A stretch of 64,000 nucleotides of DNA from Arenicellaceae bacterium (GTDB lineage: Bacteria > Pseudomonadota > Gammaproteobacteria > Arenicellales > Arenicellaceae), in NCBI GenBank assembly GCA_029246505.1, contig JAQWNC010000030.1, positions 1 to 64,000 on the forward strand, read 5' to 3'. The notes under the pieces were generated by a model. It had not been told where the DNA came from and searched no databases. It was given only the letters and a program-made list of their open reading frames with translations. How positions within the stretch are numbered: position 1 is the first letter of the stretch; each line of letters starts with the position of its first letter. The translations under genes were made by a program, and so were the position numbers. Shown here piece after piece: positions 59,714-64,000 of the stretch.

Positions 59714-61093
59714 GTGAGCCCAGATAACGCTAGACAAAAGTTTTTTGGTACTGATGGAATTCGAGGACGTGTAGGCACACAGCCGATAGTACCTAAAACA
59801 ATCGTTCAGTTAGGTTGGGCCTTGGGTGAAGCCTTACGCGCCGAGCATGGTGCCGGTACCGTTGTTATAGGTAAAGATACCCGTATTTCAGGTTACATGT
59901 TTGAATCATCGCTAGAGGCGGGCTTGTCGGCTGCCGGCATGGACGTAATGTTGATTGGCCCATTGCCAACCCCAGGTATTGCATACCTCACGCGATCTTC
60001 CCGTGCTTTGGCTGGAATTGTAATTAGTGCTTCGCACAATCCTCACTATGATAATGGGATAAAGATCTTCTCAGGCGCTGGCTACAAGCTTTCTGACGAA
60101 TTAGAGGTCAAAATAGAGACGTTAATGGGAGTAGCGATGAAGGTCGTTGATGCCGCAGAGCTTGGTAAAGCATCTCGTTATCCGGATGCTGCAGGCCGCT
60201 ATATCGAACATTGCAAAGCTACGGTGCCAGACGATTTTTCTTTGGCAGGTATTAAAATCGCACTTGATTGTGCCAATGGTGCCGCTTATCACGTCGGACC
60301 TGCCGTTTATAAAGAACTAGGCGCAGATGTTGATTGTATAGGTATCGATCCGGATGGTTTGAATATCAATGACGGGGTTGGCTCTACCCATATGGAAGCG
60401 ATTCAAAAACACGTCAAGGCCTTTGGCGCGGATATTGGAATCTCTTTGGATGGGGATGCAGATCGGGTACTGATCGTCGATGCAGATGGTGATGTTGTTG
60501 ATGGCGATGCGATGCTTTACTTGATGGCGAAAGCGCGACTACGTCAAGGTGAGGAAGTACCAGGCGTGGTGGGTACGTTGATGTCCAATTTGGGGATACA
60601 ACGTGCGGTGGAGGCAATAGGTATTAAATTTGAGCGGGCCTCGGTAGGCGACCGATATGTGATGCAACTGCTTCAGAAGAAAAATTGGAAATTAGGCGGT
60701 GAGTCGTCTGGTCATTTAATTGATCTTGATAAAACTACTACTGGTGATGGCATAGTGTCTTCCTTACAGATAGTTCGCGAACTTAAGGAATCAGGTAAAA
60801 CACTAAGCCAATTGCTTGACGGTGTAACAAAATTTCCGATGTTGATGATCAACGTAGATATATCGGCTGCTGGTGGCACTGACGCTGCGATTATTTGTGG
60901 TGTAGATGTTATACAGAACATCGTACGAGAGGCTGAACAGGGCCTCGGTAAAGAAGGTAGAGTGTTACTACGACCATCTGGTACCGAACCTCTAATTCGA
61001 GTAATGGTCGAGGGTAAAGATGAGCAACAGGTCGATCATTGGTGCCGTAGGATTGCAAGCTGCGTAGAACAGCAACTCATTGAGTATTCATAA
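59714..61093 (+). CDS. glmM: Phosphoglucosamine mutase
   Basis: The 459-residue enzyme has the start KFFGTDGIRGRVGTQPIVPK, the phosphoserine S107 in GIVISASHNPHYDNGIK, the metal loop SLDGDADRVLIVDADG, the sugar loop GGESSGHLI, and the phosphate-binding RPSGTEPLIRVMVEG. It converts glucosamine 6-phosphate to the 1-phosphate for peptidoglycan and LPS precursors. The start is GTG after GAGAGG. It follows folP by 10 bases. Confidence 0.97.
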   Translation: MSPDNARQKFFGTDGIRGRVGTQPIVPKTIVQLGWALGEALRAEHGAGTVVIGKDTRISGYMFESSLEAGLSAAGMDVMLIGPLPTPGIAYLTRSSRALAGIVISASHNPHYDNGIKIFSGAGYKLSDELEVKIETLMGVAMKVVDAAELGKASRYPDAAGRYIEHCKATVPDDFSLAGIKIALDCANGAAYHVGPAVYKELGADVDCIGIDPDGLNINDGVGSTHMEAIQKHVKAFGADIGISLDGDADRVLIVDADGDVVDGDAMLYLMAKARLRQGEEVPGVVGTLMSNLGIQRAVEAIGIKFERASVGDRYVMQLLQKKNWKLGGESSGHLIDLDKTTTGDGIVSSLQIVRELKESGKTLSQLLDGVTKFPMLMINVDISAAGGTDAAIICGVDVIQNIVREAEQGLGKEGRVLLRPSGTEPLIRVMVEGKDEQQVDHWCRRIASCVEQQLIEYS

Positions 61094-61105
61094 GCCTTCG
61101 CTGAA

Positions 61106-61136
61106 TAATAAATAGCTACCTGTCTAGCTATTATTA
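61106..61136 (+). repeat. AT-rich hairpin after glmM
   Basis: TAATAAATAGCTA and TAGCTATTATTA pair with one bulged base around CCTGTC, 12 bases after the glmM stop. No T tract follows, so termination is doubtful; it may protect the mRNA end. Confidence 0.4.
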
Positions 61137-61259
61137 GTCGAGGTTTACCGCTCCATTTCGGTTGCTTTATACAGTGTGGGTGGTTAACATCCGGCCTCGA
61201 TTTTGTGCTAAGCGATGATTTTTGGTTAGTTTGGCACCTCGTAAGGTTCGAATGAAATA

Positions 61260-62030
61260 ATGCAGCAAGTAAGACGCAAACTGGTAGCCGGGAATTGGAA
61301 GATGCACGGTTATCCAGCTTTAGTTGCGGAATTGGTACCCAATGTTGTGGCCGCAACACAAAACCTGAATATGGATGTGCTGTTTATACCTCCATATACA
61401 AGTCTGGCTGCTGTTTCTGAACAGGTAAAAAACACGCATTGTTTTGTGGGTGCGCAGAGTGTCAGCGAATACCCCGAAGGAGCTTATACCGGTGAGGTTT
61501 CGACGAGAATGCTATTGGATCTTGGTTGCAAGTTTACCTTGGTTGGTCATTCGGAGCGTCGTAGTATTTTTGGTGAGAGTAATGCTGATGTGGCGGCCAA
61601 GTTTTTGGCGGCCAAACAGGCAGGAATAGAGCCAATATTATGCGTAGGGGAAACCTTACAGCAAAGAGAAAGTGGCGATACAGAACAGTGTATTGATCGG
61701 CAACTGCAAGCAGTAGTGGATGTGCTAGACAGTATTGGTGGTGCAGATGGTTTGAATGGAGCCATTGTGGCGTATGAGCCAGTCTGGGCTATTGGTACCG
61801 GGCGTACAGCAAGTGCTGAACAGGCGCAGGCCGTTCACGCGTTTATACGAGATGAGATAGCTGAGTTAAATAGTGACATTGCTGAAGAGCTTAAGATTTT
61901 GTATGGCGGCAGTGTCAACGAAAGTAATGCGGGTGAATTATTTGCCCAGAAAGATATTGATGGTGGGTTGATTGGCGGTTCGTCACTAAAGGCAGACAGT
62001 TTTTCGGCAATTTGTCAGGCAGCGTCATAG
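61260..62030 (+). CDS. tpiA: Triosephosphate isomerase
   Basis: The 256-residue TIM barrel has RKLVAGNWKMHGYPALVAEL at the start, the catalytic H97 in LVGHSERRSIFGE, catalytic E173 in AYEPVWAIGTGRTA, and the phosphate-binding LYGGSVNESNAGE and DGGLIGGSSLK. It interconverts the two triose phosphates of glycolysis. The usual next gene, secG, follows after 63 bases. Confidence 0.98.
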   Translation: MQQVRRKLVAGNWKMHGYPALVAELVPNVVAATQNLNMDVLFIPPYTSLAAVSEQVKNTHCFVGAQSVSEYPEGAYTGEVSTRMLLDLGCKFTLVGHSERRSIFGESNADVAAKFLAAKQAGIEPILCVGETLQQRESGDTEQCIDRQLQAVVDVLDSIGGADGLNGAIVAYEPVWAIGTGRTASAEQAQAVHAFIRDEIAELNSDIAEELKILYGGSVNESNAGELFAQKDIDGGLIGGSSLKADSFSAICQAAS

Positions 62031-62093
62031 AAGGTTTAGACGTTTAAAGTCTGGATTTAGTTAAGGTTACATAGGTTACCAAAGAGAATTAAC

Positions 62094-62477
62094 ATGACAG
62101 CAAACATATTATTAGTGATCGATGTTTTCGCGGCTATAAGCCTTATTGTGTTGGTGCTTTTACAACAAGGTAAAGGTTCTGATATGGGCGCGGCGTTTGG
62201 CGGTGGCGGATCGCAATCAGTATTTGGAAGTCGAGGCTCAGCTAACTTTTTTAGTCGGGCGACGTCGACGCTGGCAGCGGTTTTTTTCCTCAGTAGCTTA
62301 GGATTGGCCATGGTTTATACGCAAGCGGTGGAAGAGAGTTCGGTCACAGACTTATTACAGGTAGAAGATACTGCGATAGAACAACCTCTGGAACCAGCTA
62401 TAGAATCTGACGTGCCGGCAGTACCAGTAGAATTTGATGCAGTTGAAGCGATTGATGATGGCGTACCCAGATTGTAG
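62094..62477 (+). CDS. secG: Protein translocase subunit SecG, tail interrupted by TAG
   Basis: The 127-residue product has two membrane helices (LLVIDVFAAISLIVLVLLQQ and ATSTLAAVFFLSSLGLAMVY) with the family loop GKGSDMGAAFGGGGSQSVFG between them. An acidic, proline/valine-rich tail follows (PAIESDVPAVPVEFDAVEAI). SecG assists SecYE export. The frame meets TAG at codon 128 (62475-62477), but the same frame continues for 32 codons of the same composition (AEETFQEDVPAIEGVV, AVDIEVPAVQK) to TAG 62571. A premature stop in a once longer tail is likely. The membrane core is unaffected. Confidence 0.93.
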   Translation: MTANILLVIDVFAAISLIVLVLLQQGKGSDMGAAFGGGGSQSVFGSRGSANFFSRATSTLAAVFFLSSLGLAMVYTQAVEESSVTDLLQVEDTAIEQPLEPAIESDVPAVPVEFDAVEAIDDGVPRL

Positions 62478-62597
62478 AGCGCCGAAGAAACATTTCAAGA
62501 AGATGTTCCAGCCATTGAGGGTGTGGTGGCATCGGGTGCAGTGGACATCGAAGTTCCAGCGGTACAGAAATAGCAGAGGTGTAGTGATTAAGTAATT

Positions 62598-62682
62598 GCC
62601 GAAGTGGTGAAATTGGTAGACACGCTATCTTGAGGGGGTAGTGACGAGAGTCGTGCCGGTTCAAGTCCGGCCTTCGGCACCA
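62598..62682 (+). tRNA. tRNA-Leu (anticodon GAG)
   Basis: The 7-bp acceptor stem GCCGAAG pairs with CTTCGGC, followed by discriminator A and an encoded CCA. The D arm is GTG/CAC. The anticodon stem is CTATC/GGTAG with loop TTGAGGG, so the anticodon is GAG. A long variable arm (GACG-AGAG-TCGT) and T arm CCGGTTCAAGTCCGG complete a class II leucine tRNA. It follows secG as in other gammaproteobacteria, and its 3' end is a typical integration target; an integrase remnant starts 153 bases downstream. Confidence 0.97.
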
Positions 62683-62794
62683 AATTCTAGTTTACAGGGA
62701 TGCCATAAAGTACCAATAACCGCATAGAATATACTCATTTTTGAGTTTAGGTGTGCCAGTGAGTACCATGCTGTCATTGTTATACCATCAGTTT

Positions 62795-62831
62795 GCGGGT
62801 ATATTTTCAAAGCCAATATAAATATACCCGC
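62795..62831 (+). repeat. Perfect 12-bp inverted repeat just before the integrase start
   Basis: GCGGGTATATTT and AAATATACCCGC are exact complements around a 13-base loop. The right arm ends four bases before the ATG of the integrase remnant, so it would either be an operator or a hairpin covering the ribosome-binding site. No T tract follows. Confidence 0.7.
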
Positions 62832-62835
62832 AATT

Positions 62836-63258
62836 ATGCTTACTGATGCGAAAGTAAAAGCACTTCAGCCAAAGGATAAGGATTACAAGGTCTCTGATGC
62901 TCATGGATTATACCTCCACGTCCACAGCAACGGCTCAAAGTACTGGCGGCATAACTATCGCTATAACGGAAAGCAAAAAACGATATCGCACGGTATTTAT
63001 CCCTAGGTCAGCTCTGTTAAAGCAAGAGAAAAAATACGTGAAGCGCGTCTTTTATTGGAAGATGAACTTGACCAATGGGTGAGCGGCAGTTACAAAAGTT
63101 ATCTAAGATCGAGCAGACTGAAGCTGCTTTTGAGAATATCGTCAGGGAGTGGGTAAATATCAATGATCTATGGAGTGACCGACACCGCAAACGGGTACTC
63201 AAATCTTTGAAAAAAGATGTTTTCAACATAATTGGTAGTAGACCAATAGCAGAGATAC
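62836..63258 (+). pseudogene. Truncated P4-type tyrosine integrase
   Basis: The frame from ATG 62836 begins MLTDAKVKALQPKDKDYKVS, then HGLYLHVHSNGSKYWRHNYR and NGKQKTISHGIYP, the DUF4102 N-terminal domain of P4-like integrases. It hits TAG at 63004-63006 and continues (SSVKAREKIREARLLLEDEL). A frameshift near 63075 moves to ERQLQKLSKIEQTEAAFENI, ending in VFNIIGSRPIAEI, the core-binding domain. The catalytic domain with its R-H-R-Y residues is missing. It lies just downstream of tRNA-Leu, the usual place for such integrases, so this is the decayed left end of an integrated element. Confidence 0.85.
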
Positions 63259-63355
63259 AGCAGCAGAAATCTTCGATTACATTGAGGTACTTTATAATCG
63301 AGCTAGACGTCATAATCACCTGGGAAATATCAGCCCTGAGGCGTTTGAAAACTAA
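63251..63355 (+). mobile_element. IS3-family transposase 3' fragment
   Basis: The frame reads RDTAAEIFDYIEVLYNRARR, then HNHLGNISPEAFEN and TAA at 63353-63355. This is the very C-terminal end of an IS3-family OrfB transposase (YIEVxYNRxRRHxxLGxxSPEAFE). The rest of the element is absent. It abuts the integrase remnant, and the join near 63255 marks an insertion or deletion point. Only the last 30 or so residues are present, so the subgroup cannot be given. Confidence 0.75.
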
Positions 63356-63367
63356 TGGGCGTCTGTA

Positions 63368-63439
63368 GGGTGAGTGTCCAAGAAATTGGGGCCATTCGAC
63401 GCGATTATGGGGTGAGTGTCCAGAAAAATGGGGACATTC
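63368..63439 (+). repeat. Two imperfect 30-base direct repeats
   Basis: Two copies starting GGGTGAGTGTCCA (63368-63397 and 63410-63439) continue as AAGAAATTGGGGCCATTC and GAAAAATGGGGACATTC, 42 bases apart. A third shorter related piece (TGAATGTCCGGAGAA) starts at 63452. They lie directly after the transposase fragment, so they are probably IS-end sequence or duplicated ends. Confidence 0.6.
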
Positions 63440-63492
63440 CACCGCTCTTAACTGAATGTCCGGAGAATCGGCGTAAAACCAGGAGATGCTAA

Positions 63493-64000
63493 ATGAATAT
63501 AGTCCTTTTTGGGGTAGGTGGACATGCAAGAGTTGTTGCTGAAGTCGTCAACCTGGAGGGTAAATACAACGTAGTCGGATTGGTTAGCGATAGAAGCGTT
63601 TCAAGTTCTTTTTTAGCGCCTAGTGAAGTTGTGGGAACTAATTCCGAGCTAGCAAATATTATAGTACGTTTCGAAGTTCAGGGGGCCATAGTTGCTCTTG
63701 GGGAAGCAAGAGCCAGAGAGCGTTTGGGATTGCTCGCAGGGGAGCATGATCTCATGCTTGTAAAGTCGATCCATCCTAAGGCGATTATCTCTTCGGAAAC
63801 CACCATTGGGGAAGGTTCAGTAGTGACGGCTGGAGCTGTAGTCAATTCAGGTACATCCATCGGGGCTGGGTGTATTATAAATACACTTAGCTCAGTTGAT
63901 CACGATTGCAAACTAGGTGATTTTGTTCATGTTTGTCCAGGAGCTGTAATAACAGGAACAGTTACCATTGGCAATAGAACATGGGTTGGAGCCGGTGCTG
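63493..64000 (+). CDS. PglD/NeuD-like sugar O- or N-acyltransferase, 5' part
   Basis: The gene starts at ATG 63493 behind AGGAGATGCT and is open to the window end (169 residues seen). An N-terminal PglD-type Rossmann domain (VLFGVGGHARVVAEVVNLEG) is followed by hexapeptide left-handed beta-helix repeats (TTIGEGSVVTAGAVVNSGTS, IGAGCIINTLSSVDHDCKLG) including the catalytic-type histidine in SVDHDCKLGDFVHVCPG. Such enzymes acetylate UDP-amino sugars or sialic-acid-like sugars for surface glycans. It sits in the island after tRNA-Leu and implies a polysaccharide or glycosylation cluster beyond the window. Confidence 0.9.
   Translation, partial: MNIVLFGVGGHARVVAEVVNLEGKYNVVGLVSDRSVSSSFLAPSEVVGTNSELANIIVRFEVQGAIVALGEARARERLGLLAGEHDLMLVKSIHPKAIISSETTIGEGSVVTAGAVVNSGTSIGAGCIINTLSSVDHDCKLGDFVHVCPGAVITGTVTIGNRTWVGAGA

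Follow-up and report, generated by a model that had tools for sequence, protein, structure and literature searches.

An immobilised tRNA-Leu(GAG) island with a broken P4-type integrase and three sugar genes in an Arenicellaceae draft genome

Overview of the locus

Near the right end of the 64,000-nt window analysed here, a P4-type element most probably entered the gene of tRNA-Leu(GAG), its integrase died, and three sugar-related cargo genes remained; we assign a probability of about 0.86 to this reading. The window comprises positions 1-64000 of contig C15, which extends beyond it to 101,920 and is part of a 2.64-Mb draft genome (30 contigs, 97.5% complete). Observed are the tRNA gene, a pair of direct repeats, a broken integrase, the tail of an IS3-family transposase, the protein families of the cargo, and XerC and XerD alone as full tyrosine recombinases of the draft assembly (Table 1). 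The locus is an ordinary immobilised tRNA island, and the type of event is common. Viewed singly, the locus is a routine case of fossilised horizontal gene transfer, and it clearly exemplifies cargo that has outlived its integrase.

Islands of the P4 type typically target a tRNA gene at its 3' end, carry their integrase beside attL and facing away from the tRNA, and are bounded by direct repeats at both ends. Here, a P4-type recombinase with arm-binding, central and catalytic domains would have inserted the element at the 3' terminus of tRNA-Leu(GAG); in this process, the tRNA would have been rebuilt on the left side (attL), and a 35-bp copy would have remained on the right (attR). The integrase would then have been lost: a nonsense codon and a frameshift break its reading frame, and its 3' part is replaced by a fragment of IS3. 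The locus is like other P4-type islands with respect to the tRNA 3'-end target, the Arm-DNA-bind_3 and Phage_int_M domains beside attL, which read away from the tRNA, and the end repeats. It differs from them by the missing catalytic domain of its integrase and by its small size of about 4.7 kb.

Table 1. Features of the tRNA-Leu(GAG) locus, and integrase stubs and left ends at other tRNA genes of the same genome. Positions without a prefix refer to the window.
Feature	Position	Strand	Basis and remarks
tRNA-Leu(GAG), presumed integration target	62598..62682	+	ARAGORN
Putative attL core	62660..62694	+	Last 23 tRNA bases and 12 beyond; 34/35 copy at C15:67341-67375
Candidate arm-type repeat 1	62700..62715	+	ATGCCATAAAGTACCA; sequence and left-end alignment; putative role
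Candidate arm-type repeat 2	62753..62768	+	GTGCCAGTGAGTACCA; sequence and left-end alignment; putative role
14-bp perfect inverted repeat	62793..62833 (62793-62806 / 62820-62833)	.	Sequence; directly before integrase start codon
Integrase N-terminal arm-binding domain	62836..63006	+	PF13356; 56 codons, then TAG
Integrase central-domain remnant, other frame	63078..63269 (ends approximate)	+	PF22022
IS3-family transposase C-terminal tail	63260..63355	+	NF033516, PF13333
IS3-type right end, terminal CA	63369..63394	+	By eye
Second, similar IS-end-like repeat	63411..63436	+	By eye
NeuD/PglB/VioB-family sugar acetyltransferase, 211 aa	C15:63493-64128 (window part 63493..64000)	+	TIGR03570
GT61 glycosyltransferase, 428 aa	C15:64184-65470	As acetyltransferase	Open frame and profile match
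DegT/DesI-like aminotransferase	C15:65652-66830	As acetyltransferase	Open frame and profile match
tRNA-Leu(CAA) stub and left end	C8 (L009:7683-7973)		84% over 234 bp to Leu-GAG left end
tRNA-Asn left end, non-coding arm alone	C21 (L010:2151-2269)		83% over 69 bp to Leu-GAG left end
tRNA-Leu(CAG) stub, different integrase	C6 (L213:2229-2740)		PF13356, E = 1.5e-19; open frame of 87 aa
tRNA-Leu(TAA) stub, different integrase	C16 (L211:243-560)		About 20 codons in two frames, mainly by eye; weak match, E = 0.25

The broken integrase and the IS3 remnant

To the left of the tRNA gene lie tpiA and secG, in this order. The first-pass annotation, which was made from the sequence alone, had described secG and tRNA-Leu followed by a P4-type integrase with a TAG codon and a change of frame, cut off where the tail of an IS3-family transposase begins. 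The former part was confirmed by means of ARAGORN and the models TIGR00810 (secG), PF13356 and PF22022, the latter by NF033516 and PF13333. As a side observation, the secG frame ends with a TAG at 62475-62477, while an in-frame reading rich in Glu, Val and Pro persists by eye to about 62572; SecG has 127 residues here versus 143 in the same-genus genome G001.

Arm-DNA-bind_3 (PF13356) matches positions 62836-63003 with an E-value of 4.7e-15, and this first frame is closed by the TAG at 63004-63006. Similarity sets in again from about 63078 in another frame, where Phage_int_M (PF22022) was matched within the frame 63075-63365 (E = 5.8e-10, profile positions 1-48 of 96). The central-domain remnant breaks off before the catalytic domain, at the start of the IS3 transposase tail. 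A whole-genome search with PF00589 (the catalytic Phage_integrase domain) gave two genes, both elsewhere; because there is no match at the tRNA-Leu(GAG) locus, the integrase is a dead P4-type relic and no working member of its family. The two genes encode XerC and XerD, both above the curated cut-offs, XerD being located on another contig. The draft assembly, in which contig gaps may hide integrases, yielded no further full tyrosine recombinases. As the integrase is destroyed, the island is unable to excise by means of its own enzyme.

Two candidate arm-type repeats are located between the putative attL core and the integrase. According to the left-end alignment, repeat 1 was retained with changes in the copies at tRNA-Leu(CAA) and tRNA-Asn, and repeat 2, again with changes, in the copy at tRNA-Leu(CAA). 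The inverted repeat preceding the start codon is a possible autoregulatory site of the integrase.

The IS3 tail corresponds to positions 342-369 of the 369 positions of the NCBIfam model transpos_IS3 (NF033516, E = 1e-5); the match is below the whole-protein cut-off of this model, as expected for 31 residues. The rve_2 model (PF13333) matches the same tail with an E-value of 2.9e-7. An intact IS copy was not found in the genome, where the only other match of the region 63255-63492 spans 26 bp (E = 0.55).

Right end and extent of the island

The first-pass annotation had proposed to look for a duplicated tRNA-Leu 3' end further to the right, and such a copy was indeed found: the sequence at 62660-62694 recurs at C15:67341-67375, about 3.3 kb past the end of the window, with 34 of 35 bases identical. 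The whole-genome E-value of this match is 3.0e-10, and the runner-up in the 41.9 kb examined has 22/35 identical bases; the repeat pair is not due to chance. Multiple attR copies on C15 were considered and rejected, as there is a single one. We infer that the two repeats are attL and attR. Given attR at this position, the island has a length of 4658 bp, and together with the integrase stub the right-hand repeat supports the original claim that an island with a broken mobility gene begins in the window at tRNA-Leu. The only forward frames of at least 90 aa inside the repeat pair are those of the stub and of the three cargo genes.

The G+C content is 0.461 for positions 60001-62597, 0.395 for the cargo and 0.411 for positions 67376-69999. 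Because the low value persists to the right of attR, composition marks the left side of the island only and not its right end. An empty site was not found: no relative joins the present right flank to the tRNA, and G001 is the only same-genus genome among those searched. In G001, the sequence after tRNA-Leu differs, and its contig stops 1.2 kb further on. The remainder of C15 (67376-101920) is gene-rich and has an uneven G+C content of 0.39-0.58 (1-kb windows, first 12.6 kb); near the end of the contig, there is a tRNA-SeC beside genes that by eye resemble selA, selB and selD.

In streamlined aquatic bacteria, an excerpt of PMC10872708 describes repeats formed by the final 20 nt of tRNA-Lys, and islands ranging in size between 330 bp and 42 kb. 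The locus is like these additive flexible genomic islands, or tycheposons, in that tRNA 3'-end repeats lie beside a variable cargo island. Tycheposons as described in that excerpt carry a tyrosine recombinase, named xerD there, whereas the island described here has only a stub.

Cargo genes

Past the integrase relic, three full-length and apparently intact genes follow in the same direction (Table 1). The repeats and the sugar acyltransferase that had been proposed from the sequence alone were both recovered, the repeats by eye at 63369-63436 and the gene, which begins at 63493, by means of TIGR03570 (177.1 bits, cut-off 160.8). Among solved structures, the acetyltransferase is nearest to perosamine N-acetyltransferase (4ea7, E = 5.3e-32), to a pilin glycosylation protein (4m98) and to VioB (7txp). 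At the aligned position the protein has a histidine, which we take to be the catalytic one; in two additional PDB chains of perosamine N-acetyltransferase, N or A stands in its place. For the aminotransferase, DesI is the best model (355.5 bits, under the curated cut-off of 650), and 2po3 is the nearest solved chain (E = 6.7e-76). An FHATK stretch is conserved in the alignment, and its lysine presumably binds PLP. For the GT61 glycosyltransferase, a search of 20 other genomes of the family gave no strong match (marginal matches in two, with E-values of 3.8e-4 and 8.6e-4); the gene was therefore probably acquired. A viral source of this gene was considered and dropped: among 25 pattern matches in viral contigs there was no relative.

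After the loss of the integrase the cargo would have stayed in place. It would plausibly yield an N-acylated 4-amino-4,6-dideoxy sugar, which would be made from dTDP-4-keto-6-deoxyglucose and which the GT61 enzyme would probably attach to a surface glycan, both the target and the role at the cell surface being predictions. A gene for a dTDP-glucose 4,6-dehydratase is absent from the cassette itself. The glycan locus that had been expected beyond the window is supported with respect to the nature of the cargo; at about 4.7 kb and with no more than three cargo genes, it is not a large locus.

In Pseudomonas syringae, the viosamine island (vioA, vioB, vioT) likewise combines a 4-aminotransferase with a 4-N-acetyltransferase and a glycosyltransferase; according to an excerpt of PMC3927599, VioA and VioB together with a transferase decorate flagellin there. 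In the same excerpt, that island differs in having seven genes, a VioT of 1173 aa (versus 428 aa for the glycosyltransferase described here) and chromosomal flanks designated gs and hk, and integration into a tRNA gene is not mentioned there.

The chromosomal site in related genomes

The first-pass annotation had named rimP-nusA as the right neighbour of the site in relatives, and this assumption has to be corrected for the present lineage. In this genome, nusA and rimP are located on contig C18, behind a tRNA-Met. Of 40 related genomes, 31 were checked at the site (for the other nine, there was no tpiA match or no locus was obtained); one of the 31 had no tRNA on the stretch and four offered less than 600 bp, which left 26 with at least 600 bp to be judged. 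Markers, namely nuoA, nuoD, rimP, nusA, uvrB, Fer2 and nitroreductase, were identified by models. Within 600 bp of tRNA-Leu(GAG), the neighbour was nuoA in nine of these 26 relatives, ferredoxin in seven and another sequence in ten; rimP was found in none. In addition, named loci were taken from the best 80 of 579 TpiA relatives (at most 59% identical), and 54 of them had tRNA-Leu(GAG) on the stretch. Here, too, nuoA was the commonest neighbour within 600 bp (32 loci), and rimP followed in eight; the remaining loci had rimP further away (two), nuoA further away (one), other sequence (eight) or too little room (three). Four genomes from other families of the order (G021, G029, G032, G039) have a distance of 14.7-15.1 kb between tRNA-Leu and rimP, with nuoA and nuoD in between. 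In two of these four, what appears to be the whole nuo operon was seen by eye in this interval.

Within the same family, the neighbours are ferredoxin and nitroreductase in seven genomes, and all seven ferredoxin cases belong to this family. In four of the seven, a back-facing tRNA-Asn follows 1.0-6.1 kb further on, and then uvrB in three. As tRNA-Asn and uvrB stand at the start of contig C21 in the genome studied here, C21 is the likelier right side of C15. The putative interval from tRNA-Leu to tRNA-Asn would then be at least 41 kb, counting the remaining 39 kb of C15. Neither ferredoxin nor nitroreductase was found in the stretches of this genome that were examined.

A complete integrase of the same type is located at tRNA-Leu(GAG) in G002, a genome of the sister genus. 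It consists of 386 residues and has all three domains; at its start, 70 residues are 70% identical to the stub. Relatives of the G002 integrase are encoded by 38 loci in viral contigs, with identities of 37-49%. In G008, which belongs to the same family, tRNA-Leu(GAG) is followed by a gene with DUF6538, which we take to represent the N-terminal part of an integrase, and then by a gene that looks TIR-like by eye (C37, L193:1001-2235). Judged by these other occupants in G002 and G008, the tRNA-Leu(GAG) site seems to have been used repeatedly.

Other tRNA sites of the genome

The tRNA census was based on 35 Rfam places, of which 34 were scanned over up to 1200 bp downstream, some having less than 400 bp to the contig end; tRNA-SeC was left out. 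The 35th place, a tRNA-Ser, gave no integrase match. One query, derived from the stub on C6, comprised 15 residues in the wrong frame; the C6 stub was still matched by the other four queries. Integrase stubs were found at four of the five tRNA-Leu genes and a left end lacking an integrase at tRNA-Asn (Table 1); for the fifth gene, tRNA-Leu(TAG), the census gave no stub. Outside the tRNA-Leu genes, there was one weak integrase match in opposite orientation, at a tRNA-Arg (E = 0.65). Stubs suspected by eye at tRNA-Gln(CTG) and tRNA-Lys(TTT) gave no match.

The stub at tRNA-Leu(CAA) has a frame of 21 codons, 17 of which are alike in the Leu-GAG stub. For tRNA-Leu(TAA), a candidate right end at C16:4681 delimits a candidate island of 4351 bp. 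A 293-bp dispersed repeat (87%; C16:4585-4875 and C8:2703-2993) spans a copy resembling the 3' end of tRNA-Leu(TAA) together with the same outer flank. Since the candidate right end sits in this repeat, the tRNA-Leu(TAA) island is less secure than the one at tRNA-Leu(GAG). For the CAA, CAG and Asn sites, right ends were not found in the stretches scanned.

Of greater interest than the single locus is that one and the same genome contains several decapitated tRNA-Leu islands. Together with the tRNA-Asn copy, they display several stages of decay: two of three domains are partly left at Leu-GAG, 87 codons at Leu-CAG, about 20 codons at Leu-CAA and Leu-TAA, and the arm alone at Asn. The series is complemented by the intact relative at the same tRNA in the sister genus. 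A broader claim would be that the lineage was repeatedly entered by P4-type elements seeking tRNA-Leu (at least four of five tRNA-Leu genes and tRNA-Asn), and that every integrase was lost while left arms and cargo were kept. We consider this claim unlikely. If true, the islands would be either cargo fixed after a purge of the recombinases, or short units of about 4.5 kb mobilised in trans.

Alternative explanations

The stub and the sugar genes might be unrelated layers, if an old integrase element had left attL and the stub and the sugar cassette had come separately beside the IS3 element, for example by IS-mediated recombination. In favour of this explanation, the cargo begins right past the two IS-end-like repeats, and the IS3 remnant marks the point at which the integrase breaks off. 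It is nevertheless doubtful: attR is located to the right of the cargo, which therefore lies inside the repeat pair, and as the IS region has no second copy in the genome, none flanks the cargo at the right. A further view, that the arrangement is native to the chromosome and the 35-bp repeat a coincidence, could draw on the widely varying neighbours of tRNA-Leu(GAG) among relatives. It is very improbable, however, considering a repeat match far beyond chance, the presence of integrase and IS fragments, and a GT61 gene lacking a strong match in the family.

A different question is whether the islands lack autonomy but continue to move in trans, using the integrase of a visiting phage or satellite, with the left arm retained for this purpose. 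Left ends were indeed retained at tRNA-Leu(CAA) and tRNA-Asn, every integrase is truncated, attL and attR differ at one of 35 positions, and the two islands for which a right end can be proposed are similar in size. On the other hand, the decay of the Leu-GAG stub by a stop codon, a frameshift and an IS is pseudogene-like and does not look like a designed loss. Moreover, a comparison of C15 with C8 gave 126/153 identical bases for the non-coding arm, which is no better than the coding stub (44/51) and hence does not support selection for movement in trans. There is no sign of excision, and the second right end, being part of a dispersed repeat, is doubtful. We therefore judge movement in trans to be quite improbable and prefer the immobilised island with its dead integrase.

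Further repeats

Three additional pairs of repeats were observed among the compared stretches of the assembly. The pair C15:66988-67064 / C6:90753-90825 is 80% identical, and each member lies about 4.3-4.4 kb past a tRNA-Leu. Inverted repeats with 97% identity are located at C8:243-372 and C8:3262-3391, and a pair with 90% identity at C16:9998-10214 and C18:109818-110035.
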